Positions 6,252 through 59,982 of a stretch of DNA of 64,000 nt are shown here, one piece after another (within the stretch, counting starts at the first letter, position 1; each line of letters begins with the position of its first letter). The position numbers were made by a program, and so were the translations under genes. Under the pieces are notes generated by a model. The model worked only from the letters and a program-made list of their open reading frames with translations. It made no database searches and had not been told where the DNA came from. The DNA lies in assembly GCF_030323145.1 (NCBI RefSeq), contig NZ_CP100470.1, positions 4,505,001 to 4,569,000 of the forward strand, read 5' to 3'. This DNA comes from Mesorhizobium sp. C432A. Lineage in GTDB: Bacteria > Pseudomonadota > Alphaproteobacteria > Rhizobiales > Rhizobiaceae.

Positions 6252-8063
6252 TCAGATAAAAAGATCGACCTTCTGGAACGTCGTCACGTCGATCAGGCCG
6301 ACATCGGAAATCCTGAGCTCCGGAATGACGACCAGCGCCAGCAGCGAGTGCTGCATGTAGGCGTTGTTGAGCGAGCAGCCCATCTTGCGCATCGCCTCGG
6401 TCAGTTTCTCCGCCTTGGCCGCCACGATTTCCGCCCGCTCGTCCGACATCAGCCCGGCGATCGGCATTTCGACCAGCGCAAGCTCCTTGCCCTTCGAAAA
6501 CAGCACCACGCCCCCGCCGACCTCGCCCAGCCGGTTGACGGCCAGCGCCATGTCTTCCTTGTTGGTGCCGACGCAGATGATGTGGTGGGCATCATGTGCG
6601 ACGCTCGACGCCATGGCGCAGTCGCCCATATAGCCGAAGCCTGAGACGAAGGCATTGGTGACGCCGCCGGTGCCGCGGTGGCGCTCGACCAGCGCGATCT
6701 GGCAGATGTCGTTGCGGCGGTCCATGGCGACCAGCCCGTCCTCGACCGCCAGGTCGGCCTCCAGCGCCCGCGTCGGCGCCTGGTTTTCGATCACGCCGAT
6801 GACCCGCACCCGCACCTCGTTGGCGCCCTTGGGCGCCGCAATGTCGAAGTCGCCTGGCTTCAGCTTCTTGCCGAGCTTGACGGTGTTCTTCGCCGATTTG
6901 GGGTAATCATAGGCCGGAATGTCGATCTCGAGCTTGCCGCCCTTGGCCAGCCTGATACCGCGGCCATAGACCTCGTCGATGGTCATGGCGGCAAGATCGG
7001 AGACGATCAGCAGATCGGCCAGCCGTCCCGGCGCGATCGAGCCCAGTTCGCGCTCCAGCTTGAAATGCTGGGCGGTATTCAGCGTCGCCATCTGGATCGC
7101 CGTCACCGGCTTCAATCCCTGTTGGATGGCGTGGCGCACCACCCGGTCCATATGGCCTTCATGCACCAGCGTGCCGGAATGGCTGTCGTCGGTGCACAGG
7201 ATGAAGTTGCGCGGGTCGAGACCGCTCTCGGTCACCGCCTTGATCTGCGAGGCAACATCGTACCAGGCCGAGCCCAGCCGCAGCATTGCCTTCATACCCT
7301 GGCGCACACGGGCGATCGCGTCCTCGGCGCGCGTGCCTTCATGGTCGTCCTCCGGCCCGCCGGCGACATAGCCATGGAACGGCAGGCCGAGATCGCGCGA
7401 CGCATAGTGGCCGCCGACCGTCTTGCCCGCTCGCACCGTGGCGGCGATCTCGCCCGACATCACCGGATCGTTGGCCACGACACCGGGAAAATTCATCACT
7501 TCGCCGAGCCCGATGATGTTTTCCCAGGTCATCGCTTCCGCGACATCGGCGACCGTCAGTTCGGCCCCGGCATGCTCCAGCCCCGGCGCGGATGGCACGC
7601 AGGACGGCATCTGGACATGGACGTTGATCGGCATGGCGACGGCCTCGTCATGCATCAGCCGCACGCCGGGCAGACCCAGCACATTGGCGATCTCGTGCGG
7701 ATCGATGAACATCGAGGTGGTGCCGTGCGGGATGACGGCGCGGCAGAACTCGGTCACCGTCACCATGCCGCTCTCGACATGCATGTGCGCGTCGCACAGG
7801 CCGGGCACCAGATAGCGGCCGCCGGCATCGACCACCTTGGTGCCCTGGCCGATGGCATGGCTGGCATTCGGCCCGCAATAGGCGAAGCGGCCGCCGGCAA
7901 CGGCGATGTCGGTGCCGGCTATGATCTCGCCGGAGTGCACGTTCACCCAGCGGCCGTTGCGAATGACGAGATCGGCAGGCTTGCGCCCCGTCGCGACGTC
8001 GACCAGATGCGTCGCCATCTCGGTCCAGGGCTTGGGTTTCGTCGCCGACGGCTGCTTGGCCAT
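6252..8063 (-). CDS. ade: Adenine deaminase
   Basis: Converts adenine to hypoxanthine and ammonia in purine salvage; a metal-dependent amidohydrolase of the cytosol. The 603-residue protein has the amidohydrolase metal motif DAHMHVE at residues 91-97, a later CTDDSH motif near residue 290, and the C-terminal adenine-deaminase domain ending in a TTFQKVDLF strand. AGGAGT lies six bases before the ATG at 8061-8063, which favours this start over an in-frame ATG 19 codons upstream. It converges with the DUF900 pair. Confidence 0.92.
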   Translation of the reverse strand: MAKQPSATKPKPWTEMATHLVDVATGRKPADLVIRNGRWVNVHSGEIIAGTDIAVAGGRFAYCGPNASHAIGQGTKVVDAGGRYLVPGLCDAHMHVESGMVTVTEFCRAVIPHGTTSMFIDPHEIANVLGLPGVRLMHDEAVAMPINVHVQMPSCVPSAPGLEHAGAELTVADVAEAMTWENIIGLGEVMNFPGVVANDPVMSGEIAATVRAGKTVGGHYASRDLGLPFHGYVAGGPEDDHEGTRAEDAIARVRQGMKAMLRLGSAWYDVASQIKAVTESGLDPRNFILCTDDSHSGTLVHEGHMDRVVRHAIQQGLKPVTAIQMATLNTAQHFKLERELGSIAPGRLADLLIVSDLAAMTIDEVYGRGIRLAKGGKLEIDIPAYDYPKSAKNTVKLGKKLKPGDFDIAAPKGANEVRVRVIGVIENQAPTRALEADLAVEDGLVAMDRRNDICQIALVERHRGTGGVTNAFVSGFGYMGDCAMASSVAHDAHHIICVGTNKEDMALAVNRLGEVGGGVVLFSKGKELALVEMPIAGLMSDERAEIVAAKAEKLTEAMRKMGCSLNNAYMQHSLLALVVIPELRISDVGLIDVTTFQKVDLFI

Positions 8064-8204
8064 GAAAGACTCCTGTTTGCCAGACTGTGCCAAGCCGGCA
8101 AGGTTTTGGCCAGCGATCACGGACGAAATCCGCTCGATGAGAACTCGCCCTGGCGGATGCGCCGCACCTGTTCACACCGGCGAGCGTCACGGCGGTCATT
8201 CAGT

Positions 8205-8233
8205 TTGGCCTGTGCCGGCACTTATGCTACTAT
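8205..8233 (+). promoter_or_regulatory. Candidate sigma-70 promoter for short leader/hydrolase
   Basis: TTGGCC at 8205-8210 and TACTAT at 8228-8233 are separated by 17 bases, a good housekeeping promoter. Transcription would start near 8240, only about 25 bases before an intrinsic terminator, so it should produce mostly a short RNA with read-through into the hydrolase gene. Confidence 0.45.
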
Positions 8234-8263
8234 TCTGCCGACGGTGCTGATTTGCGCCGACGA

Positions 8264-8287
8264 CCCGCCGCGAGGCGGGTTTTTGTT
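8264..8287 (+). terminator. Intrinsic terminator upstream of hydrolase gene (possible attenuator)
   Basis: A perfect six-base-pair stem CCCGCC/GGCGGG with a GCGA tetraloop is followed by TTTTTGTT. It lies 32 bases upstream of the hydrolase start and points the same way, so it either ends a short independent RNA or attenuates the hydrolase transcript. Confidence 0.75.
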
Positions 8288-8319
8288 GTGATGAGGCCGA
8301 AACCTCCTGAGGTGAAGTC

Positions 8320-9171
8320 ATGACCCGGTTCCTGAAAGCACTCGCCTTCGTCACCCTGTTCCTGATCTCGGCCGGCTTTGCATCCGCCGAGGAACGTTGG
8401 CAGACCTTGCCCGAACCGGCGGCCATGCCCAAGCCTGAACAGAGCGGATATGCGCCGGTCAACGGCATTCAGATGTACTACGCCGTTTTCGGCGCCGGTG
8501 ATCCGATTCTCCTGATCCATGGCGGCCTTGGCCATGGCGACATCTGGGCAAGCCAGGTGGCGACCATGTCCAAGACGCACAAGGTTATTATCGCCGACAG
8601 CCGCGGCCATGGCCGCTCTACCCGCACCGAGCAGGCTTACGGCTATGACCTCATGGCGTCGGACTATCTTGCGCTGCTCGACTATCTCAAGATCGACAAG
8701 ACCGCTCTTGTCGGCTGGAGCGACGGCGGCATTATCGGCATCGACATCGCGCTGCATCATCCGGAGCGGCTGACACGGCTCTTTGCGCAGGCCGCCAACG
8801 TCACCACCGATGGCGTCGATCCGGGTGTGCTGACCAACAAGACCTTTGCCGCCTATATCGACCGCTCGGGCCGCGACTACAAGAAACTGTCGAAGACTCC
8901 CGACCAGTACGATGCCTTCGTGGCGCAGATCAGCCACATGTGGGAGTCGGAGCCGGCCTGGACCAAGGAGCAGCTCGGCAAGATAACCACGCCGACCGCG
9001 ATCGTTGCCGGCGACCATGACGAGGCGATCAAGCGCGAACACACCGAATACATGGCCTCCGTCATTCCGGGCGCCAAGCTCATCATCCTGCCCAACGCCA
9101 GTCATTTCGCCATGCTGCAGGCGCCGGACGAATATAGCCAGGCGGCGCTGGACTTCATCGACGCCAAATAG
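8320..9171 (+). CDS. Secreted alpha/beta-fold hydrolase
   Basis: A 283-residue protein with a clear Sec signal peptide (cleavage after FASA) and a canonical alpha/beta-hydrolase core. The oxyanion turn is LLIHGGLG, the nucleophile elbow GWSDGG, the acid Asp lies in AGDHDEAI and the His in NASHFAML. It should be periplasmic. Substrate cannot be told from sequence. The ribosome-binding site GAGGTGA is well placed. A terminator just upstream hints at attenuated expression. Confidence 0.87.
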   Translation: MTRFLKALAFVTLFLISAGFASAEERWQTLPEPAAMPKPEQSGYAPVNGIQMYYAVFGAGDPILLIHGGLGHGDIWASQVATMSKTHKVIIADSRGHGRSTRTEQAYGYDLMASDYLALLDYLKIDKTALVGWSDGGIIGIDIALHHPERLTRLFAQAANVTTDGVDPGVLTNKTFAAYIDRSGRDYKKLSKTPDQYDAFVAQISHMWESEPAWTKEQLGKITTPTAIVAGDHDEAIKREHTEYMASVIPGAKLIILPNASHFAMLQAPDEYSQAALDFIDAK

Positions 9172-9300
9172 CGCCCCCAGCTAGAGCACCCCAGCGCAGC
9201 AACGGGTGCATTCCGATTGTTGAACAATGGGTTCCGTTTTGCGGCGAATAGGATTACCTTCCGGCAAGGCGCCTTCTGAACCGCCTTTTCGGAGAACTCG

Positions 9301-9963
9301 ATGCGGTGTCTGACGATTGCCAGTGCCGGATTTCTGATCGCTCTGGCCGCGCCGGCATTCGCCGCCGACCCGATGGCGGTGCCGATGACCGAACCAGGCT
9401 TCGACTGGACCGGCTACTATGCCGGCCTGCAGGCCGGCTACGGCTGGGGCCAGTCCGACATATCAGTGACGGAAGGCGCGCCGTTTTCCATCTCGCCCGA
9501 CATTGACGGCGGTTTCGTCGGCGGCCATGTCGCCGGCCTGTGGCAGTTCGATCAGGCGGTGCTCGGCGCCGAGGCGGAGCTCAATTATTCCGCCGTCGAC
9601 GGTACGGCGGTATCAGGCCTTGGAAGCACATTCCGCACGGACATCAAGTGGTTCGGATCTGTAAACGCCAAAGCGGGCTTCGCCATGGACCGCGTGCTGG
9701 TCTACGGCGTCGGCGGCGTCGCCTTTGCCGGCATCGAAACTTCGCAAGTCGCGGGCGCGTCGTTCGCCGGCACACGCACGAATATCGGCTGGACCTTGGG
9801 CGCCGGCGTTGACTATGCGCTGACCGACAAATTCATCGTCGGCGCGCAATATCGCTATTACGATTTCGGCTCCGAGCACTATGACGTGGCGGAACCCTTC
9901 AACGATCGCGATCAGGATGTGAAGATGAACGCGGTCGGTATCAATCTCAGCTACAAATTCTGA
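9301..9963 (+). CDS. Outer-membrane beta-barrel protein, Omp25/Omp31 type
   Basis: A 220-residue protein with a Sec signal peptide ending AFAAD, the barrel-start motif DWTGYYAGLQAGYGWG, alternating polar and hydrophobic strands, and a terminal aromatic residue (NLSYKF) as needed for outer-membrane assembly. Length and motifs fit the Omp25/Omp31 group of small Rhizobiales barrel proteins. GGAG lies seven bases before the start. It resembles the partial gene at the left edge of the window. Confidence 0.88.
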   Translation: MRCLTIASAGFLIALAAPAFAADPMAVPMTEPGFDWTGYYAGLQAGYGWGQSDISVTEGAPFSISPDIDGGFVGGHVAGLWQFDQAVLGAEAELNYSAVDGTAVSGLGSTFRTDIKWFGSVNAKAGFAMDRVLVYGVGGVAFAGIETSQVAGASFAGTRTNIGWTLGAGVDYALTDKFIVGAQYRYYDFGSEHYDVAEPFNDRDQDVKMNAVGINLSYKF

Positions 9964-10091: not shown

Positions 10092-10130
10092 GCGGACGTG
10101 GCGGAATTGGTAGACGCAAGGGACTTAAAA
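10092..10130 (+). pseudogene. tRNA-Leu(UAA), 5' half, interrupted
   Basis: This is the 5' half of a leucine tRNA: acceptor strand GCGGACG, D-arm, and the anticodon arm as far as the loop CTTAAAA. The bases that follow do not pair with the anticodon stem. The missing half starts at 11371, where TCCCT completes the AGGGA stem and CGTCCGC pairs perfectly with the acceptor strand. Joined together, the halves make a perfect class II tRNA with anticodon UAA, so the break is an insertion and not decay. Confidence 0.9.
10117..10130 (+). repeat. Left attachment-site repeat (14 bp)
   Basis: CAAGGGACTTAAAA, covering the 5' anticodon stem and loop of tRNA-Leu. The identical 14 bases occur at 11357-11370, exactly 1240 bases away. 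The position in an anticodon arm is a usual crossover site for tyrosine recombinases. Confidence 0.85.
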
Positions 10131-10347
10131 AGGGATTTGTCACGTCCCGAGCATTTTCAAAGGCTTAGCAGTACGCAGGAAACGCCGACATGCGTTCCGA
10201 TTGTGTTCAAGAGTTTCAACCGTTTAAGTTGAATAAACTAAGTGACTGTTTCCCTTGTGGATTGCGCTGCCACATGTGCAATGATCCCATTGGAGTGACC
10301 GTTGCAATCGCGAGTGCATGATGTGGGGAATTTTGTGGGAAAAAAAC

Positions 10348-11088
10348 TTAACCGGCAGCACTATCCGGGTCGACTTTGGCGGCAATTTTGGCATTCTTTT
10401 GTTGCGTTCTCTTGCCGTCCAAGAGCGCCTTTAGCTGCGAACTATGTTCTTTGCGACGATCCCGCTCGATATACCAGACTTTGAAAAGCTCCTCGATCAG
10501 ACCAATCAAGAGCGCCGCCTCGTTTGGATCGACGTCGATGATGACATCAACGTTTTTGTCCATGTGAGCCCCTATGTCCCCGACCCCACGAACCGCTTGA
10601 ATGTCGTCCCAGACCTGGCTGTTAATCTTGTCTTTTACGAAAGACAATTCTGCACCTAGGTCGCCTCGCCTGTTTTGCGGGATTTCGAAATAATCTCTCA
10701 CAATGCCCTGCAAACAGCGTCGCGACAAAGCTGCGGACGCGGCTCCACTGACAGGAAGCACCAAGACTGCCTCTCGATACGTTTTTTGTATCGCTTCTGG
10801 AATTGAAACCGGGAGGGGCATGACCTTGCCTTCCGGCCAAAGCCGATGCTGGTGGACGATACTGCCCCATTGCATCTGTCTTTGTGCGGGATGGGAAAAA
10901 TTTCGAATTACAAGATCAATCGACAACTCGCGACAGTTTGGGTTCGGACATGAAACAGAGAACACGCGCAGTTTGACTGCCCCGTGTTTTGATCGAAGAT
11001 TTAACATCGCATGGTCGTCGGTGCTGTCGCCATCGCTGATTGTGGTGAAGGTTCCACAATACGAGCACTCCCAATTCATTGCAGCCAT
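10348..11088 (-). CDS. Zinc-ribbon/DUF4145-like protein carried by the inserted element
   Basis: A 246-residue protein. The N-terminus has paired cysteines (CSYC at residues 8-11 and CPNPNC about 35 residues on) that suggest a zinc ribbon. The rest contains an ALSRRCLQGIVRDYF helix and an IGAHMDKNVDV segment as in DUF4145 proteins, which are often found near defence or restriction genes. The start at 11088 is chosen because GGAAGA lies seven bases upstream; longer starts would overlap the tRNA. Codon use is less GC-rich than the core genes around it, which fits transfer. Function unknown. Confidence 0.75.
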   Translation of the reverse strand: MAAMNWECSYCGTFTTISDGDSTDDHAMLNLRSKHGAVKLRVFSVSCPNPNCRELSIDLVIRNFSHPAQRQMQWGSIVHQHRLWPEGKVMPLPVSIPEAIQKTYREAVLVLPVSGAASAALSRRCLQGIVRDYFEIPQNRRGDLGAELSFVKDKINSQVWDDIQAVRGVGDIGAHMDKNVDVIIDVDPNEAALLIGLIEELFKVWYIERDRRKEHSSQLKALLDGKRTQQKNAKIAAKVDPDSAAG

Positions 11089-11115
11089 GCCGTTTCTTCC
11101 CATTACGCTCTGGTA

Positions 11116-11201
11116 TGGTGCGGGCGGCGGGACTTGAACCCGCACGGCCTAGGGCCTCCGGATTTTAAGTCCGGTGTGTATACCAATTTCACCACGCCCG
11201 C
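11116..11201 (-). tRNA. tRNA-Leu(UAA), intact, inside the inserted element
   Basis: An 86-base class II tRNA including an encoded CCA. Acceptor strands GCGGGCG and CGCCCGC pair fully, the anticodon arm is CCGGA-CTTAAAA-TCCGG giving anticodon UAA, there is a long variable arm, and the T-arm is GCGGG-TTCAAGT-CCCGC. It differs in sequence from the split host gene and lies on the opposite strand. Inference: it supplies the UUA-reading tRNA lost by insertion. Confidence 0.95.
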
Positions 11202-11356
11202 AGTCCTCGCAGATTTAGTTGGACCCGCCCTGTTTGGAAAGCGAAAAAGGCGGTTCCCATATGTGGGAAATCAGTGGGAAATCCCCACAATTTTTGGCAA
11301 TTTGTGGGAGACGTTGAATGCGCAAACCCTTGACTTGCAACGAACGTTCAGAAGCC

Positions 11357-11370
11357 CAAGGGACTTAAAA
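11357..11370 (+). repeat. Right attachment-site repeat (14 bp)
   Basis: Second copy of CAAGGGACTTAAAA. It joins directly to the 3' half of the split tRNA-Leu. Confidence 0.85.
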
Positions 11371-11417
11371 TCCCTCGATCTCTGATCGTACGGGTTCGAT
11401 TCCCGTCGTCCGCACCA
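11371..11417 (+). pseudogene. tRNA-Leu(UAA), 3' half, interrupted
   Basis: Contains the 3' anticodon stem TCCCT, a variable arm CGATC-TCT-GATCG, the T-arm ACGGG-TTCGATT-CCCGT, the acceptor strand CGTCCGC and an encoded CCA ending at 11417. It complements the half at 10092-10130 exactly. No promoter or 5' half precedes it, so it cannot make a tRNA where it is. Confidence 0.9.
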
Positions 11418-11576
11418 TTTGAAATGCTTAGGATTTGTTCTGTAAGAACTCACTGGCTACCATAGAAAAGGCTGACGCGGGTAGCAACTGAAGAGTTTTT
11501 AACACTCTTGCTGGAATACCTGCTGCAACACTCCTGTCCGTAGCAACCGACCGCGCGGCCAGGTCAAGGCACTCCC

Positions 11577-11789
11577 TTAGGAGCCGGCTGGGGCCGCAGC
11601 GGCCTCAACCCGGTGGGCATGCTCCGTCGCGATTTTAAGAAGAGTTGCAGCCGTTTCCTGTGGCGTCCAACCTTGCGCTTCTGACGCAGTCACCAAGGCC
11701 GCAAACGCGGCTTCTAATGCGACTTCACAGTTCACCCCACGGTCTGGGCTATCCTCTGGCAATATCGGGGGTTCGACGGATTGGGACAT
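11577..11789 (-). CDS. Small hypothetical protein
   Basis: Seventy residues from the ATG at 11787-11789, with a weak GAAAG ribosome-binding site. The N-terminal third is proline- and acid-rich; the remainder is a predicted helix pair (EVALEAAFAALVTASEAQG, then TPQETAATLLKIATEHAHRV). The style resembles small rhizobial proteins of unknown role. No family recognised. Confidence 0.5.
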   Translation of the reverse strand: MSQSVEPPILPEDSPDRGVNCEVALEAAFAALVTASEAQGWTPQETAATLLKIATEHAHRVEAAAAPAGS

Positions 11790-11847
11790 GGTGAGTTCTT
11801 TCAAAGGGGAAAAACCCGCCGCCCCAGCCTTTTGCCACTTGAAAATT

Positions 11848-11967
11848 TCAGCAAAGGATCATTCCAGCTATCAGCAGCGTGATTAGAACTGACAACGGCA
11901 CGGCCAGAAGACCGACCAACTCAACATTTCTTGTGTTTTGTCGCTTGTCCATCTTCGTCGCCCGCAT
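11848..11967 (-). CDS. Possible 39-residue single-pass membrane protein
   Basis: An open frame of 39 codons (or 34 from the ATG at 11952) that gives a basic N-terminus (KMDKRQNTRNVE) and one 20-residue hydrophobic helix ending MILC. The topology pattern looks natural, but there is no strong ribosome-binding site and no known family, so the call is tentative. Confidence 0.28.
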   Translation of the reverse strand: MRATKMDKRQNTRNVELVGLLAVPLSVLITLLIAGMILC

Positions 11968-12166
11968 GTCGTTGGCTTTGGCATCTTGCCGTCAACGTGC
12001 AGCTGTTGGAACCAACCACAAGTGCCGCTGATCGGAGATTCAGTCGGTGCTGCATATTAGCAACACATTGTGGAACGATCGGGCGGCATCAGCCAATTGC
12101 TTTTGAATGCGCTTGCACTTGCTTCGTACGATTCCGTACAGTTTTCCCCATTGGGGGAGGCGGCCG

Positions 12167-12358
12167 ATGGACCATGACGAGGAAGGCTACAGCATTGACG
12201 CCTTCGATTTCGATGTGGTGTGCGAGACCTTCAGGAGATCCGTTCGGGAGCTGAACCTGGCTGAAGAGCATTGGGTAGACCACGCGAAGGCGCTCCTACG
12301 GGAATTCACCGACAGCGCACCTGACGACGACATGATTAGCCGGATCGTCGGGCGCTAG
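12167..12358 (+). CDS. Small acidic hypothetical protein
   Basis: Sixty-three residues beginning MDHDEEGYSIDAFDFDVV, strongly acidic, with a helix-rich C-terminus. The start is set by an excellent GGGGGAGG ribosome-binding site eight bases upstream, which argues for real translation. No family recognised. The 360 bases to its left hold only the tentative membrane ORF. Confidence 0.55.
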   Translation: MDHDEEGYSIDAFDFDVVCETFRRSVRELNLAEEHWVDHAKALLREFTDSAPDDDMISRIVGR

Positions 12359-12690
12359 TGGCCTATACAGCCCTAGTTGGTTAGAATCGTACCCCGGTCC
12401 TGCCACGGAAACCTTTTCCAAGGTTTGCCGCGTCATAGAGGCATCACAGAAGCTCTCGGAACAGATTGCCCAGCGCGGAGGCCTATTAACTAAAAAAGCT
12501 CGCCACCTTGAGGCAACGGGCATCGCCAATGCCCTCAGAGAGCCCTGCCTGGACGTGTGGCGTCCTGTCCGGCCCTCGCCATTGATTTCGTCGGCAAGCT
12601 TGTCTTTGGCCTCGTGATAAGTCTTGAAGTTGGCATCGGGATGGCAATCGCCGGCTGCCAAGGATGCCGGGCCGCTGGCCGACCTATCAG

Positions 12691-12807
12691 TCAGGCGTCC
12701 GTAGCCAGAGCGTTATAAAGCAGCAAACACGCCAGGATAGAAACGGCGCTGCCTAGCAGCTGGTCTGCCGTCAGGCCGGAAAAATAGACAAGATGAAACG
12801 TCACCAT
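12691..12807 (-). CDS. Possible 38-residue membrane protein
   Basis: Thirty-eight codons that encode a short polar N-terminus followed by a hydrophobic helix (LLGSAVSILACLLLYNALA). GGTAGAG precedes the ATG. No family known. Apart from this frame, the interval 12359-12858 has only broken frames, which may be remnants of older inserts. Confidence 0.33.
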   Translation of the reverse strand: MVTFHLVYFSGLTADQLLGSAVSILACLLLYNALATDA

Positions 12808-12858
12808 CGCTCTACCAATCACGGTTCGGAACACTGCCGAATTAACCGTTAGCCGACG

Positions 12859-13005
12859 CTAATGTTCCGCTCTGGACTCACTACCGCTTTGGAAGAATCC
12901 TGCCGCAGCGATCAGCGCCCCGCCGACCTTGATCTCAACGTCGGTGCCACAAGGCTTCCTTCGTTCGCATGGTTCGCAGAGATTAGCACGATCGCATACT
13001 CTCAT
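12859..13005 (-). CDS. Possible small cysteine-rich protein
   Basis: Forty-eight codons starting MRVCDRANLCEPCERRKPCG. The four cysteines in the first 19 residues could bind metal, and a hydrophobic helix follows. The ribosome-binding site is poor (GGATGAG too close) and an opposite-strand frame covers the same bases, so this is uncertain. Confidence 0.3.
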   Translation of the reverse strand: MRVCDRANLCEPCERRKPCGTDVEIKVGGALIAAAGFFQSGSESRAEH

Positions 13006-13256
13006 CTCATCCGGCGTCGTCTCCCTCACAAAGCAGCGCCGGTAAGGCTCGGCGACCTTCTTGTTTGTCCCGTGTGCCAAAGGAGGTCGCCGGGCCTGCC
13101 GTTGCTCATCTTTGCTGGTGGCTGCTCCTGATGGCTGCGCTTGGCGCCGTCGCCCTACTGCTACCTGCGGGGTAAGGCCGGCGAGCCCTCTTGTCAGGCA
13201 GTCCGGCATGTAGGATTATAGTCCTCGTTGCGGCGACCCCTCAATGGAGAGCGCCA

Positions 13257-13505
13257 ATGGCCAGAACCAAACCTTCGGAACAACTTTCCCGGGCTGAAAT
13301 CGAGCGCTTCCTGGCGGCAGCCGAAGCGCTGCACAAGAGCATCGTCGGGCCGCTCCTGGCGTACCACGGCGAGCACTACCAAGCTCTACGTAAGGTCCAT
13401 GGACCCCTGTTGAAGTCGATCGAGACCATCACCGGCCAGAGGGCGAAGTTCATCCAGTGGAACGGGACAGGACCGGCACAGCCCCGGGACAAGCCTCCGG
13501 GCTAA
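13257..13505 (+). CDS. Small conserved-looking hypothetical protein
   Basis: Eighty-two residues from an ATG with GGAG seven bases upstream. The sequence is rich in helix formers (SRAEIERFLAAAEALHKSI) and ends IQWNGTGPAQPRDKPPG. It converges with the DNA ligase gene, and the two stop codons overlap. No family recognised. Confidence 0.55.
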   Translation: MARTKPSEQLSRAEIERFLAAAEALHKSIVGPLLAYHGEHYQALRKVHGPLLKSIETITGQRAKFIQWNGTGPAQPRDKPPG

Positions 13506-14365
13506 GTCTCCTCCCGGAAATCCAGCAGCTTGGCATGGCGAAGCTTCTCCTCGCCCTTCAGGAACCGCACGCGGCCGACCAGGCCCGGCTTTAGCCATTC
13601 GGCCTTGTCACTCTTGAGCCCTTTCGGCGCCGGCCCGCCCATCTTGCCTTGCACGCGGTCCCATAGGCGCTGGCGCTTGTCCGCCTTGAACGTGACGAAG
13701 GCGCCGCCGGCATAGTGGCCTTTGTCGGCCATCAGCACCATGGCAGGCTTGCCGGCCTCGCGCTGCACGCCGATGATGTCCATCTCCTTTTCGGCATAGC
13801 ACTTGATCTTGCGCCAGTTCGTCGTCGGACCCGACCGATACTTACTGCCCTTCCGCTTTGAAACGATACCTTCAAGCCCAGCCTGGTCGACCAGATGAAA
13901 GACGGCGTCGCCAGTGCCCGGCATCGCTTCGCTGAACTGGATTCGGCCACCGTCCGGGATCAACGCCCGGAGGATCTCGCGACGGTCTTCCACCGGCGTG
14001 TTCCGCAAGTCATGCCCGTTCAGATGCAAGAGGTCGAATGCTGGCAGATACAGATCGCGCGACGGCTTGCGGCTGGTCGCGGCTGATTGATGCGCATGGA
14101 AGTCGGATAGGCCAGCCTCATTGATCGTAATGGTCTCGCCGTCGATGATGAAGTCTTTCGCCTCGATCGCTTCCGCCTCACCGGCAAGTTGGATGTAGCG
14201 GCCCGTCCAATCATAACCGTTCTTGGTGATCAGCCGAATCCCGTCATCATCCTTGATGACCTGGGTGCGGTAGCCATCGAATTTGATCTCATGAATCCAA
14301 TCATCGCCCATCGGCGGCGTGTCGACCAGTTCGGGTTCCATGGGCTTGATGAATTTCAGACGCAT
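13502..14365 (-). CDS. ATP-dependent DNA ligase, short stand-alone form
   Basis: Seals DNA nicks using ATP. The adenylation lysine is Lys28 in EIKFDGYR (motif I); later ligase motifs include DGE near residue 76, GLEGIVSKRKG near residue 165 and NWRKIKC (motif V). A short OB-fold follows. At 287 residues it matches only the ligase core of LigD or LigC-type enzymes, without polymerase or phosphoesterase domains, and no Ku gene is nearby. Such stand-alone ligases usually act in accessory end-joining or repair. It sits in a gene-poor accessory region. Confidence 0.88.
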   Translation of the reverse strand: MRLKFIKPMEPELVDTPPMGDDWIHEIKFDGYRTQVIKDDDGIRLITKNGYDWTGRYIQLAGEAEAIEAKDFIIDGETITINEAGLSDFHAHQSAATSRKPSRDLYLPAFDLLHLNGHDLRNTPVEDRREILRALIPDGGRIQFSEAMPGTGDAVFHLVDQAGLEGIVSKRKGSKYRSGPTTNWRKIKCYAEKEMDIIGVQREAGKPAMVLMADKGHYAGGAFVTFKADKRQRLWDRVQGKMGGPAPKGLKSDKAEWLKPGLVGRVRFLKGEEKLRHAKLLDFREET

Positions 14366-14451
14366 GCACTGACTCGCAGAACCGCGACTTCAATTATCTA
14401 TCACTAAATTAGTTCCGGAACATTTTAGACGAATTGGATGTTTGAAGGGCT

Positions 14452-14673
14452 ATGAAGATCGAAGCCGACCAATGCCGGGCAGCGCTGACGCTCATCCGGC
14501 GCACAATGGAAGAGCACTGTCCTCCTGGCGTGCTGCCGAGCGAAGAGATGGTCAATGGGCTCTATGGTCCGGAACTGATCCATGAGGCGGAAGCCATTGC
14601 CGCCGGCATCGTCGCAACCATTGACCAGCTGCAATTGCCCGTGATGAAACCGCCGTCCCCTAGTATCAAATAG
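14452..14673 (+). CDS. Small hypothetical protein
   Basis: Seventy-three residues, divergent from the ligase gene, with AAGGG before the ATG. The sequence has a central EEMVNGLYGPELIHEAEAIAAG helix region, shown here in part only, and a proline-rich tail. It is probably expressed, but no family or function is recognised. Confidence 0.5.
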   Translation: MKIEADQCRAALTLIRRTMEEHCPPGVLPSEEMVNGLYGPELIHEAEAIAAGIVATIDQLQLPVMKPPSPSIK

Positions 14674-14892
14674 AGACCGACACAGGGAAGGTCGCTTGGC
14701 CGCCCGATCGTGGGCTCGCAACGACCGGCGAGGCGATGCCGGCCTCACCAAGGGTTACAGCCCCTCGACCAGCAGCGAAGGCGGCTCGCGGCAGTGCAAC
14801 GCCCGAAGTGTTTCGAGACGACGATGGCCACCGAGCGTAGCCAGCGCGCGTTGTGCTGCACAAGGACTGAGGCAGCGGCACGACCGCCCGGG

Positions 14893-15138
14893 CTACTCCA
14901 AAGGCGGCTCTTCGCTCTGTGGAGCCAAAACGGTGATATCCATCCTGGCGATTGTCGATGCGGCGCGCCCCTGGGCGCCAGAATCCGTGTCGCCACTTTC
15001 TGCCGCCATTGCCTTGGCGCGATGTCCTACGCTGTCTGCGCTTTTGCCTGGCGCAAATCCTTCGCCCGGTTCTGTCTTTGCGGGTTTCGGTCGAGTTTCA
15101 GCTGCCTGCCGATGTTGGTTTCCAATCGCCGAGACCAT
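14893..15138 (-). CDS. Small disordered hypothetical protein
   Basis: Eighty-one residues rich in Ala, Glu, Pro, Gly and Lys with no clear hydrophobic core, so probably disordered. The start is supported by a strong GGGGAGG ribosome-binding site six bases upstream of the ATG at 15136-15138. No family recognised. The flanks 14674-14892 and 15139-15397 show no gene that I can support. Confidence 0.45.
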   Translation of the reverse strand: MVSAIGNQHRQAAETRPKPAKTEPGEGFAPGKSADSVGHRAKAMAAESGDTDSGAQGRAASTIARMDITVLAPQSEEPPLE

Positions 15139-15397
15139 TGATACCTCCCCTTGATGAGGCCGCGACTGTACCGGTCAAGGCTGTAGCGAGGCTGATCACT
15201 TAAGTGGTCGGGTTGCGCCCGCTCGTCGTGGCCCTCCGATCACTGGGCTCTCGATGCCTTGGCGCTCGCGGACGTCTGGCCGGGTGGGAAGTTCAAACTC
15301 AGCCGCCCTTTGCGGCACCGGCTTCGCCCGACAATCAGGAACGATTTCGCCCGCCATGTGTTACGCAAACATGAATCTCGCGGATCCCGGATCAACA

Positions 15398-15586
15398 ATG
15401 GCAACCGATCTTTTCACGATGCAACTCGCTGATGCTCAGCAGCGCATCAAACAGACCGAGTTCGCGCTGGTACTCAGCGAGAAAATGGTGGCTGAGAACC
15501 TCGCTTTATCCAGCAGGATACGATCGGCGAGGCGGCGTGTCCTGAAGGCCGGAAGGCCTCTGGCGACAGCCGACTCAACAAGCTGA
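15398..15586 (+). CDS. Small helical hypothetical protein
   Basis: Sixty-two residues beginning MATDLFTMQLADAQQRIKQ, with a long amphipathic helix (TEFALVLSEKMVAENLALSSRI) and a basic tail. A GGA lies six bases upstream, so the ribosome-binding site is weak. A longer start nine codons upstream is possible. An opposite-strand frame overlaps it. Confidence 0.35.
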   Translation: MATDLFTMQLADAQQRIKQTEFALVLSEKMVAENLALSSRIRSARRRVLKAGRPLATADSTS

Positions 15587-15814
15587 AAGAGTTCTTCAAA
15601 TGATCTCGACCCAGTCGGGACGTGGGAGAGCTTGCCGGTAACCTTAGCGGTAATCGGCCGAGTCGCAGCAGGAAGCGCGCCGAAAACTTGCTCGATGAAG
15701 ACTGCGGCGTCGCTATGACCGCTACGGCTCAGTTGAGGCAGCACTTCGAAATCACGGCTATTGACCTGCTGAGCTATCAGTTTCCCTCGATCTCTAATGG
15801 TATGGGTTCTCCGC

Positions 15815-15850
15815 ACCACCCTTCGCTCTTCGAGCTTCGGGGTGGCAGGC
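15815..15850. repeat. Short palindromic repeat, copy B
   Basis: Thirty-six bases matching 886-920 with one extra G. It lies just downstream of the ATP-grasp gene, where such hairpin repeats commonly sit. A diverged relative may occur near 16885-16925, between the ATP-grasp and NUDIX genes. Confidence 0.7.
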
Positions 15851-15863
15851 CACCGAGTAGCCG

Positions 15864-16835
15864 TCAAACGTCGAGATAGCCGGCGGCGACGAGCATTGCC
15901 TTGTATCGCCGGGCAAATCGGCTGGGCAAACGGCTGAGGTAAGCTGACGCGCCAATATCCCAATGCGCGCCCAGTTCGCGGTCGAAGGCAGCCGGGTCGA
16001 ATTGCAGCAAGCCGCTGCGTGGGTAGACCGTGAATTCTCCGAAGATCGGCTCCCCCTCCTCCTCGTAGAAATCGACACGCACCATGTCGAACTCGCTGCC
16101 GAGCGCCTCGGCTGCCTCGATCATCCGCGCCAGGCTCTTGGGAGGGGGAATTTCCAGGCTCGAGTCGATCGCGCCCTGGGCAATGTTCAGCGGGCGCCAA
16201 TCGCGATCCAGGTGGGCGGTATTCTTGACCGTGGAACGGAAGGCGACGACGACGATGTAGGCGACGCGGCCAGCCAGCACACAGAATTTGTAGTCGACCG
16301 GGTCATAGCCCTGGTCCTTGCCCACAAGTGCTTCGACGAAAACCCGCCGCTCTATGTGCGCATAGCTGCGCTCCAGCTTGCGGGCGCCATAGGTTTGGCC
16401 AAGGTATTCCGTCATCTCGGCAATGATCGCCTCCCGGTCGGCGTTGGCCGGATCGCGAACGATGACATTCATGGCGCAACCGTGGTTGCATTTGACGGCG
16501 TAGGGGATTTTCAGGTCATCGAAGGGGATCTGGCGCGGATCGTCGCCCTGCCACAGCACCTCAGGGATGGCGAGCCCGGGAAGCCGCTCCCTGACGATTT
16601 CCTTGGACTTGAGCTTGTCGAGAAGACCGGCAAAGCGAGGATCGTCATCGAAAATCTTGCGCCAGTGGATCTTTTCCGTGAACGTCACCGGGGCTGCAAA
16701 ATTCGGCAGATGCCGCATCCGCTCCAGGAAACGCTGGGTCAACCGGCGGTAGCGGACAAGCAGCGCGGCGTTCAGCAACAGGAGAGATGCCCGCGCGCTG
16801 TTTCGCTTCAGCCATGCCTTTGCGCCACGCGCCAT
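15864..16835 (-). CDS. TupA-like ATP-grasp family protein
   Basis: A 323-residue protein of the TupA-like ATP-grasp family, thought to act in synthesis or modification of polysaccharide or polyamino-acid cell-surface polymers. Visible features are the entry motif FTEKIHWRKI near residue 55, a KCNHGCAMN nucleotide-binding segment near residue 115, VDYKFCVLAGRV near residue 185 and the metal-binding pattern VRVDFYEE with FGEFTVYPRSG near the C-terminus. An N-terminal hydrophobic patch may tether it to the membrane. Substrate unknown. Confidence 0.82.
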   Translation of the reverse strand: MARGAKAWLKRNSARASLLLLNAALLVRYRRLTQRFLERMRHLPNFAAPVTFTEKIHWRKIFDDDPRFAGLLDKLKSKEIVRERLPGLAIPEVLWQGDDPRQIPFDDLKIPYAVKCNHGCAMNVIVRDPANADREAIIAEMTEYLGQTYGARKLERSYAHIERRVFVEALVGKDQGYDPVDYKFCVLAGRVAYIVVVAFRSTVKNTAHLDRDWRPLNIAQGAIDSSLEIPPPKSLARMIEAAEALGSEFDMVRVDFYEEEGEPIFGEFTVYPRSGLLQFDPAAFDRELGAHWDIGASAYLSRLPSRFARRYKAMLVAAGYLDV

Positions 16836-16924
16836 TCCGGTGTCCTTGCAACCTGCGCAACTTCATCCGCGAAGTGGACGTGCCACCCTGCCCGCAGCAG
16901 TGAGGCACGTCGAGCTTCGCCGAG

Positions 16925-17503
16925 CTAGCCCTTCATCGGGTACAGTTTCAAATGCTGGATCAGGATGATCGTCTTGGCGTCGATGATGCGGCCGTCTGAA
17001 ATGCCGGCCAGCGCTTCATCAAGAGGCATTTCCAGAACCTCGATGTCCTCGCCCTCGTCGGCCGCGCCGCCGCCGGCCGAGATGCGGTCGGCGGGTGAAT
17101 AGCGCGCCACGAAGAACCACAGCCGTTCGGTGACGCTGCCCGGGCTCATATAGGGGGAAAACAGCCGCTCGATGTTCTGTAGGCGATAGCCGAGCTCTTC
17201 CTCGGCCTCCTTGAGGATGGCGGTTTCGGGATCGTTTTTGTCGAGCAGGCCGGCGCAGGCCTCGATCAGCGGTTCGCGGTGGCCGGTGACGTAGGCGGGG
17301 TAGCGGAACTGCCGCACCAGAAGCACCGTCTGACGCTCGGGATCGAAAGGCAGGATCACCGCGCCGTCGCCACGATCGTAGGTCTGGCGAATCTGCGTCT
17401 CCCACTGCCCGTCGCGCCGACGGTAATCGAGAACGGTCTTCTTCAGGACCGCCCAGTCGTCGGACAGGACTTCCTCCGAGCGGATGCGGATACGATCTTC
17501 CAT
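16925..17503 (-). CDS. nudK: NUDIX hydrolase, NudK-like (GDP-mannose hydrolase group)
   Basis: A 192-residue protein of the ADP-ribose/GDP-mannose pyrophosphatase group. The Nudix box is CAGLLDKNDPETAILKEAEE followed by ELGY, with the small insertion typical of NudK. The start at 17501-17503 has GGAG seven bases upstream and yields a normal-length protein; the open frame extends 35 codons further without similarity. It is divergent from the flavin reductase gene. The exact substrate (GDP-mannose or ADP-ribose) is inferred from family. Confidence 0.82.
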   Translation of the reverse strand: MEDRIRIRSEEVLSDDWAVLKKTVLDYRRRDGQWETQIRQTYDRGDGAVILPFDPERQTVLLVRQFRYPAYVTGHREPLIEACAGLLDKNDPETAILKEAEEELGYRLQNIERLFSPYMSPGSVTERLWFFVARYSPADRISAGGGAADEGEDIEVLEMPLDEALAGISDGRIIDAKTIILIQHLKLYPMKG

Positions 17504-58719: not shown

Positions 58720-59175
58720 ATGATCGACAGCGGCTTTGAAACCACATCTCTGCGCATGACGCTTCTGCTGCTTGTCAGCTTCCAGGCCCCGGCAGCCGAT
58801 GTCGACCGCATCATGGACGCCGTGGTCGCGATCGCGCCGCTGGCAATGGGCAAATACGACCGCAACGCCTATCAAACGGCGCACGGCATCGAACGCTACC
58901 GACCGCTGGAAGGTGCAGCCGCCGGGGTCGAAACCGAACTGCGCCGCCGCCCCGGCACCGTCGAGGTCTCGTTCGAGTTGCCCGACGACCAGGTGCTCGC
59001 CGCCCGCGTCGTCGAGGCAATTTTCCAGGCGCATTCCTACCAGGAGCCGGTGATCCGCATCCAGCCAATCCTCGCCAGCCGCTCCAAGGGCCTGGACGAC
59101 CGCGCCAATCCGAATCGCTGGTGGAACACGACCGGGGACTGGAAGAAAGCGCTTCCAGTTAAGGAAGAAGCCTAG
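58720..59175 (+). CDS. Small protein related to the Nif3/YqfO insert domain
   Basis: A 151-residue protein with two regions: YRPLEGAAAGVETELRRRPG and FELPDDQVLAARVVEAIFQA, followed by HSYQEPVIRI. This resembles the PII/CutA-like insert found in Nif3-type dinuclear metal proteins, without the metal-binding domain. Function unknown. The first ten residues are poorly supported, so an ATG further in (residue 13) could be the start. The 323 bases to rpmG hold repeat debris and a promoter only. Confidence 0.6.
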   Translation: MIDSGFETTSLRMTLLLLVSFQAPAADVDRIMDAVVAIAPLAMGKYDRNAYQTAHGIERYRPLEGAAAGVETELRRRPGTVEVSFELPDDQVLAARVVEAIFQAHSYQEPVIRIQPILASRSKGLDDRANPNRWWNTTGDWKKALPVKEEA

Positions 59176-59718: not shown

Positions 59719-59832
59719 GATTCAAGGCCCCGAAAAGCCAGAACCCTCCGCTGTTTGGCGCGAAGTGCTCATCTCATTTTTTGGCAAAAAAGGGGGCCGG
59801 TCGGCGTATGGCAGCGGTACGAGGAGGCCACT

Positions 59833-59982
59833 ATGTGCCAGCGCCGGCCGGCCGACCCCACGGACCCAGGAGATGCGGCGGACCTGAGCATCATGGGGTA
59901 TTCGGCGAAGCGATGCGGCTGTCTACCCTCGTGCCCGCATCGCCCTTGTTCTTGCACCGCACATTTGCGCAACAATGTTTGA
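59833..59982 (+). CDS. Possible small cysteine-rich protein
   Basis: Forty-nine codons starting MCQRRPADPTDPGDAADLS, with a C-terminal KRCGCLPSCPHRPCSC cluster; six of its seven cysteines are in that half or at its edge. A very good GAGGAGG ribosome-binding site lies six bases before the ATG. It could be a small metal-binding protein. No family recognised, and opposite-strand frames overlap it. Confidence 0.4.
   Translation: MCQRRPADPTDPGDAADLSIMGYSAKRCGCLPSCPHRPCSCTAHLRNNV

Follow-up and report, generated by a model that had tools for sequence, protein, structure and literature searches.

Results

A split tRNA-Leu(UAA) gene and its insert

The window (the whole 64,000-nucleotide stretch of Mesorhizobium sp. 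C432A DNA analysed here, from contig NZ_CP100470.1) contains a native tRNA-Leu(UAA) gene that is split by an insert of 1240 bp, counting one copy of the 14-bp direct repeat that marks both junctions; the insert holds in turn an intact, different tRNA-Leu(UAA) and a cargo gene, both on the opposite strand (Table 1). When the two native halves are joined ARAGORN finds an 86-nt tRNA-Leu(UAA), and the identical 86-mer is uninterrupted in 26 loci of 23 congeneric genomes; at the left and right junctions neither ARAGORN nor Rfam calls a tRNA, the inner tRNA being the only one called. A first-pass annotation of this stretch had proposed the split, the unrestored left junction and the intact second gene within, and all three are borne out. 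The GC content of the insert interior is 0.51, as compared with 0.60–0.63 in the flanks.

The same annotation had raised the possibility that the inner tRNA is the genome's only reader of UUA codons. The host genome (6.02 Mb in a single contig) has 46 tRNAs by Rfam, only one of which, the inner tRNA, has the anticodon UAA (the other leucine anticodons, as typed by ARAGORN, are CAA, CAG, UAG and GAG), and a pattern for intact tRNA-Leu(UAA) matches the genome once, again at the inner tRNA, so that the suspicion is upheld and no second intact copy is found. UUA codons are absent from the seven host genes of the window that were counted (2,300 codons); demand for a UUA-reading tRNA may thus be low, and given this absence tRNA-Leu(UAA) may be an unusually tolerant target for insertion.

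Table 1. Features at and around the split tRNA-Leu(UAA) gene (positions in the window).
Feature	Position	Strand	Evidence or remarks
5' half of native tRNA-Leu(UAA)	10092..10130	+	0/39 mismatches to the intact gene of relatives
14-bp direct repeat CAAGGGACTTAAAA, left copy; recombination core, anticodon stem-loop	10117..10130	+	sequence comparison
Insert left end, resembling an arm of a phage attachment site (attP)	10131..10347	+	CAAAGGCTTA box 10158-10167; direct pair TGTGGGGAATTTTGTGGGA 10322-10340
Cargo gene, zinc ribbon + DUF4145 (HEPN-type) protein, ~246 aa	10348..11088	-	Pfam, PADLOC, homologues
Intact element-borne tRNA-Leu(UAA), the genome's sole UUA reader	11116..11201	-	ARAGORN, Rfam 65.8 bits, pattern scan
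Insert right end, attP arm-like, with upstream region of the inner tRNA	11202..11356	+	GTGGGA repeats at 11263, 11274, 11304
14-bp direct repeat CAAGGGACTTAAAA, right copy	11357..11370	+	sequence comparison
3' half of native tRNA-Leu(UAA), encoded CCA included	11371..11417	+	0/47 mismatches
Left neighbours conserved at target locus	6252..9963		adenine-deaminase-type gene (-); beta-barrel outer-membrane protein (OMP) gene 9301-9963 (+)
Right neighbour conserved at target locus, NUDIX-type gene	16931..17503	-	~5.5 kb from the tRNA in the window

Recurrence in Mesorhizobium

Recurrence in other genomes served as the chance test for the arrangement of the 14-bp repeat. The genus sample has 146 genomes and the family sample 384 (G numbers are genome labels). 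The pattern for intact tRNA-Leu(UAA) is present in 141 of the 146 genus genomes (139 with one match and two with two matches; five have none), and the second matches, in G029 and G102, are left junctions that are continued by TC by chance. In 19 of the 146 the sole intact tRNA-Leu(UAA) is foreign and lies at this locus, and in none of the 19 are all three usual neighbour genes missing from the stretch that was fetched. Both split halves are retained in 16 of these 19, around inserts of 581–2866 bp (mostly 0.6–1.7 kb, with two up to 2.9 kb; the largest, in G100, is measured to the outer, decayed half). The left half is gone in G089 and G116 and the right half in G149, implying that the host gene was replaced outright in these genomes; the idea that G089 and G116 hold large elements whose left half had escaped detection was rejected, since the deaminase gene lies close upstream, and both are taken as relics. 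The native halves show no mismatch over 86 nt in 10 of the 14 genus elements measured and one mismatch in another; they are decayed in G025, G100 and G022, and in G022 the element-borne tRNA is apparently itself split by a second element, with decayed fragments left. Open frames in the inserts reach at most 305 aa, in the leucine-rich repeat gene of G025, so that no insert has an intact integrase of the usual size (336–359 aa in the phages compared below).

Ten of the 19 genomes carry elements of the window's kind (type A), whose inner tRNA belongs to the same class and is oriented against the split gene; type A elements also occur in two genomes of other genera in the family, G182 and G236. 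The other nine genus genomes carry type B elements or relics, with different foreign tRNAs in the same orientation as the host gene. Within the genus the inner tRNA class is confined to these 10 genomes, in each of which it lies within an insert in a split tRNA-Leu(UAA), and no genus genome has it at an uninterrupted locus; the inner tRNA is therefore cargo of the element, as the first-pass annotation had supposed. Other-genus tRNAs that resemble it (L116, L117, L120-L132, L134, L135, L137, L138) are without split halves in the fetched stretch and were not counted. In G124 and G140 the split tRNA and its element are inverted relative to the OMP and NUDIX neighbours.

Element ends

Seven elements share a CAAWG-type box and a pair of TGTGGG motifs (12-bp spacing) at positions after the core that are fixed to within 1–2 bp, the pair standing 189–191 bp past the core; in the window element the pair (TGTGGGGAATTTTGTGGGA) begins at 191 bp. 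The left arms that hold these motifs are only 43.5–59.5% identical in 19 of the 21 pairwise comparisons (G074/G094 reach 72.7% and G128/G140 93.1%), as compared with 38–43% in a shuffle control (five shuffles of one pair). The left-arm pair motif TGTGGGRNATNNTGTGGGA matches 7 of the 146 genus genomes, once each and always in these inserts; in 13 chosen genomes it was likewise found in elements only. On the right side a GTG repeat lies 99–102 bp ahead of the core in 10 of 10 genus type A elements, and arm sequences are of three kinds, GTGGGA, GTGCC (G182, G236) and GTGACA (G065, G102, G149). The GTGGGA repeats of the window element lie 100, 89 and 59 bp ahead of ACTTAAAA within the core; the sites lie at 101/90/60 bp in G007 and G066, at 112/100/81 bp in G074 and G128, and at 79/68 bp in G182. 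By this arrangement of their motifs the ends of the insert look like a phage attachment site.

Links to T7-like phages

Leaving the target tRNA gene unrestored is an already known phage strategy, tRNA-dependent lysogeny, which the part of Guerrero-Bustamante & Hatfull (2024; PMC10865867) drawn on here describes in actinobacteriophages, naming the Lj965 prophage as another possible case. The window element has the corresponding features: insertion in a host tRNA gene at a short core, no rebuilt tRNA, and an intact tRNA of the same isotype in a host otherwise without one. Target restoration, a trait of classical genomic islands in tRNA genes, is not seen. A contrasting case is found in G020, where the same tRNA-Leu(UAA) holds a prophage-like island of 16.7 kb that brings in a new 5' part and thereby restores the gene (L082 970-17767).

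Among phage records the element matches best to the T7-like Rhizobium phage Pasto, at its tRNA-Leu. The order in this phage is tyrosine integrase, SPFH protein, tRNA-Leu(UAA) (minus strand), GTGCCA repeats, a core with ACTTAAAA, and RNA polymerase; the Pasto tRNA is 90.6% identical to that of the G182 element and 86% identical to the window's inner tRNA. In Mesorhizobium phage Lo5R7ANS (KM199771.1) the integrase adjoins a tRNA-Leu(UAG) and GTGACA repeats (L188 6073-8654), possibly a tRNA-dependent integration module for another leucine tRNA. These integrase-bearing T7-like phages resemble the elements in that a tRNA-Leu (UAA in Pasto, UAG in Lo5R7ANS) adjoins integrase and arm repeats, and the right-arm phase is partly that of Pasto, with sites 102/90/81/70 bp ahead of its core; however, they are ~40 kb long and have integrase, RNA polymerase and virion genes.

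A chromosomal intermediate in size is present in Shinella sp. PSBB067 (NZ_CP069303.1, ~1220580-1229493; L213 8581-17494), where an 8.8-kb insert splits tRNA-Leu(UAA) and contains a further tRNA-Leu(UAA), which is encoded on the opposite strand. Its T7-type RNA polymerase, peptidase, helix-turn-helix (HTH) protein, integrase and SPFH protein are 54, 61, 35, 58 and 66% identical to those of Pasto, its gene order is that of Pasto opened at attP, and its right-arm sites lie at 100/89/79/67 bp. The insert looks like a partial T7-like prophage, that is, like tRNA-dependent integration by a T7-like phage. No T7-type RNA polymerase or virion genes are found in the 1240-bp insert of the window, the RNA polymerase being present in this Shinella relative, and no tyrosine integrase is found in it either. 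A fragment of one occurs in the G102 insert, which encodes the C-terminal part of a tyrosine integrase (PF00589, 3.9e-10). This fragment shares 48% identity with the Pasto integrase over 52 aa and 46% with that of Shinella; it matches 14 phage records, Pasto and Lo5R7ANS included, and the other phages, judged from their names, are presumably mostly T7-like. The G124 element has as its cargo a MarR regulator that shares 46.5% identity with the protein encoded immediately upstream of the integrase in Lo5R7ANS; the regulator has 36 phage-record matches (among the 15 listed Lo5R7ANS leads, and pelagiphages and LUZ100 are included) and two plasmid-record matches, one of which is the Shinella element. 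In two other genera, G460 (L216 7307-8341) and G344 (L217 9723-17290) encode Pasto-like integrases, 77% and 53% identical respectively, with TGTG pairs nearby; in G344 peptidase and HTH genes stand alongside the integrase, as in Pasto.

Cargo genes

In all 12 type A elements examined the cargo shares the strand of the inner tRNA and stands downstream of it; in the window it starts ~28 bp past the 3' end of the tRNA (the ATG at 11088 was chosen from homologues, and alternative starts are at 11145, 11103 and 11079). This placement suggests that the cargo probably rides on transcription of the tRNA; a simple scan, weak either way, found no sigma-70-like promoter (1.2 expected) and no terminator-like site between the two. 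The window cargo matches PF13643 (DUF4145; 4.1e-5, 24.0 bits against a cut-off of 23.1) and, over residues 3–172 of 243, the PADLOC model for PD-T7-4 (1.3e-7), and it has 276 homologues, with a RxVGDIGAHM motif conserved in the 30 that were aligned. By homology it looks like a PD-T7-4-type anti-phage defence protein; DUF4145 itself is placed, in the relevant part of PMC3710099, among the HEPN families, and is said there to occur fused to zinc ribbons and to be linked to defence.

Two other cargo genes recur, C1 in G025, G066, G128, G140 and G236 (with a fragment in G029) and C2 in G074, G094, G100 and G182. A word-based search of a 5.8-billion-protein database, which reaches only relatives sharing short exact words, returned five homologous clusters for C1 and four for C2. 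The ratio of nonsynonymous to synonymous substitution rates (dN/dS) is 0.12 in three pairs for C2 (not computable against G182) and 0.10–0.14 for C1 against G236, where dS is 1.4–2.0. Structure models of C2 and C1 (mean predicted local distance difference test scores of 43.7 and 42.7) were too poor for use, and a profile search of solved structures gave nothing convincing for either (best E 0.75 and 0.085, respectively). An assignment of C2 as RusA was set aside as a hint only (Pfam 0.22–0.28, PHROGs 0.23).

Signs of horizontal spread

The right arms of the G025 and G029 elements are 96.7% identical, as compared with 82.3 and 86.6% for the host flanks, and those of G007 and G066 are 91.3% identical, as compared with 82.1% for the upstream flank. 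The G022 and G027 elements are 88% identical over ~950 bp and yet lie in different tRNA sequences, and C2 is 91% identical in G094 and G100 although their right arms are only 47% identical, so that cargo and arms are mosaic. Together with the intact native halves, these identities fit a recent, repeated and horizontal arrival of the elements.

Neighbouring features

The adenine-deaminase-type and NUDIX-type labels in Table 1 are a reading of the sequence. The interval between the tRNA and the NUDIX gene (11420-16930) measures ~5.5 kb, as compared with ~2.4 kb in G018, a relative with an empty site; it holds LigD-like and TupA-like genes and is possibly a second variable spot. Elsewhere in the window, a tRNA-Arg called by ARAGORN at 58874-58962 is not listed by Rfam and is likely a false call, and the small RNA EcpR1 (Atu_C6; Rfam RF02500, 108 bits) lies at 59790-59901.

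Discussion

The insert is probably a non-autonomous integrative mini-element derived from T7-like phages that use tRNA-dependent integration. Such an element would have no integrase of its own and would comprise an attachment site of phage type, a tRNA that rescues the host and a single cargo gene; it would originate from T7-like phages (Autographiviridae) that integrate into tRNA-Leu. Integration would depend on a tyrosine integrase acting in trans, whose most likely source is an infecting T7-like phage. Recombination between the core of the element and the anticodon stem-loop of the one tRNA-Leu(UAA) gene in the host would split this gene without rebuilding it; the cell would survive the split because the element brings its own tRNA-Leu(UAA), which, if expressed, would have become essential, and the cargo, which at least in a few elements may have anti-phage potential, would be expressed through transcription of this tRNA. 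Exact excision would restore the host gene, whereas decay of the ends would lock the host to the foreign tRNA, a step that would account for the 19 of 146 genomes whose only intact tRNA-Leu(UAA) is foreign.

Several observations weigh against this explanation. With regard to the ends, only two of the three right-arm sites of the window element lie within 1–2 bp of sites in Pasto, the third (59) being without a Pasto counterpart; the left pair lies 173 bp past the core in Pasto and Shinella and 189–191 bp past it in the mini-elements, albeit with the same 12-bp spacing; and by the pattern used the left pair is absent from G025, G029, G066, G100, G182, G236 and all type B elements but G124. With regard to cargo, dN/dS for C1 within the genus is 0.27–0.61, indicating weak constraint, and there is no phage or plasmid match for C1 and no phage match for C2, which implies that these genes do not come from known phages. 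The integrase fragment of G102 is not uniquely phage-like, as it also matches 28 plasmid-collection records, through which the Shinella element came to light, and is 39% identical over 56 aa to a recombinase resident throughout the genus. Close relatives of the Shinella and Pasto integrases were found in 2 of the 384 family genomes (G460 and G344), with no tRNA-Leu in the stretches taken. Moreover, no phage or plasmid record covers 80% of the element, and the matches to the 20 records listed out of 99 and the 20 out of 79 are tRNA-sized; the left-arm motif has no match outside elements in the 146 genus genomes; and scans of IMG/VR (with patterns for core-to-box, two forms of the inner tRNA, the Pasto integrase, the arm pair and C1) revealed no integrase, helper phage or circular form for GTGGGA-armed elements, the core-to-box scan returning two stretches, both unrelated, and the arm-pair scan 10 stretches, none with a tRNA-Leu. 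A scan of genome contigs gave 15 stretches, three of which are known elements (G007, G128 and the same element as in G236) and one of which, L163, is unrelated on reading; L151 and L155 were scanned for tRNAs only. Finally, current mobility lies beyond these sequence facts, and the elements could also have spread by homologous recombination of the flanks.

An unlikely but serious alternative is that each insert is the immobile last remnant of a T7-like prophage with tRNA-dependent lysogeny, from which everything but the needed tRNA was deleted. Decay of this sort is illustrated by the partial prophage of Shinella and the integrase fragment of G102, as well as by the decayed halves in G100, G022 and G025 and the lost halves in G089, G116 and G149, and the missing helper, sought with the left-arm motif in 146 genomes and in the IMG/VR scans, agrees with it. 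However, the mini-element explanation is preferred because the left arms of seven elements are kept in register in spite of their low identity, because the C1 and C2 cargo genes belong to rare families, are constrained and form mosaics with the arms, and because no full-size prophage with the left-arm motif occurs in the 146 genomes. In addition, the split halves are intact in most elements measured, and in the pairs compared the elements are more similar than their hosts.

The first-pass annotation had gone further and viewed the inner tRNA as a small addiction device, loss of the element being lethal unless excision is exact. One part of this proposal stands, in that the tRNA is the sole UUA reader (with one copy in 139 of the 141 matching genus genomes) and cannot be lost alone. 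Exact excision would nevertheless restore the native gene, so that loss of the element is not necessarily lethal, and UUA is absent from the seven window genes; since integration breaks the tRNA gene, a replacement is needed at entry, which is enough to explain its presence. Selection of the tRNA mainly as a punishment for element loss is considered improbable.

More doubtful still is movement by a resident recombinase. The candidate, a tyrosine recombinase near tRNA-Ser(GCU) (~5386502-5387305 in the window's genome; L189 8503-9306), is distantly related to the Pasto integrase, with 38–40% relatives of the latter in 9 of 11 Mesorhizobium element carriers that were searched and the 39% match to the G102 fragment noted above. 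It is present, however, in 120 of the 146 genus genomes, most of them element-free, and was not found at E <= 1e-40 in the carriers G029, G140 and G144; it is conserved in the genus, and as a diagnostic helper it was rejected on its distribution. Least credible of all is an intron or a split tRNA joined in trans, with the native halves still yielding a tRNA: both halves are intact in sequence, but no group I intron or other intron family reaches the Rfam gathering threshold in the window, recombination is indicated by the 14-bp direct repeat, the insert holds a second tRNA that is complete, and most relatives have the native gene uninterrupted.

Among published systems, which are described here from parts of the sources cited, tRNA-dependent lysogeny involves complete temperate phages with an integrase (PMC10865867), whereas the elements have no intact integrase and no structural genes. 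T7-like cyanophages integrate in tRNA-Leu, although integration was found without stable lysogens (PMC8776855). In Sinorhizobium meliloti a host tRNA is replaced by a foreign one, as here, but by phage-related sequences of 3.24–88.98 kb rather than by integrase-less elements of ~1 kb (PMC11476347); in the phiLM21-like prophages described by the same research group, some of which sit at tRNA-Leu(UAA), the tRNA gene of the host is rebuilt (PMC12429752). Tycheposons are likewise tRNA-associated mobile elements with cargo, but they are 4–200 kb long and have their own tyrosine recombinase (PMC10872708), which is lacking here, where the target gene is disrupted. Helper-dependent islands and phage satellites, some of which carry phage defence, require a helper for transfer (PMC12595487, PMC11389934); the islands of PMC12595487, however, encode their own integrase, and the packaging and replication genes of satellites are not seen in the element. 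No title or abstract on integrase-less mini-elements of this sort was found in the literature searched, with subscription papers largely outside the coverage.

A bolder version, offered tentatively, is that ~1-kb cassettes of a tRNA and one gene borrow the integrase of T7-like phages, pay with a replacement tRNA, express anti-phage genes from the tRNA promoter and swap an essential tRNA across the genus. It is equally tentative that the protective genes would be the PD-T7-4-like protein and the T7-phage MarR regulator, directed against those same phages. If this version is true the cassettes would be, to our knowledge, the smallest phage satellites. On the mini-element explanation itself, tRNA-dependent integration, known from complete phages, would have shrunk to a portable unit made up of an attachment site, a rescue tRNA and a single gene. 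Annotation readily overlooks a tRNA gene that is disrupted by a 1-kb insert; the elements connect rhizobial T7-like phages that bear an integrase with traces left in chromosomes, and they offer a concrete route by which a single-copy tRNA may be replaced by a foreign one, as seen in 13% of the Mesorhizobium species sampled (19/146).

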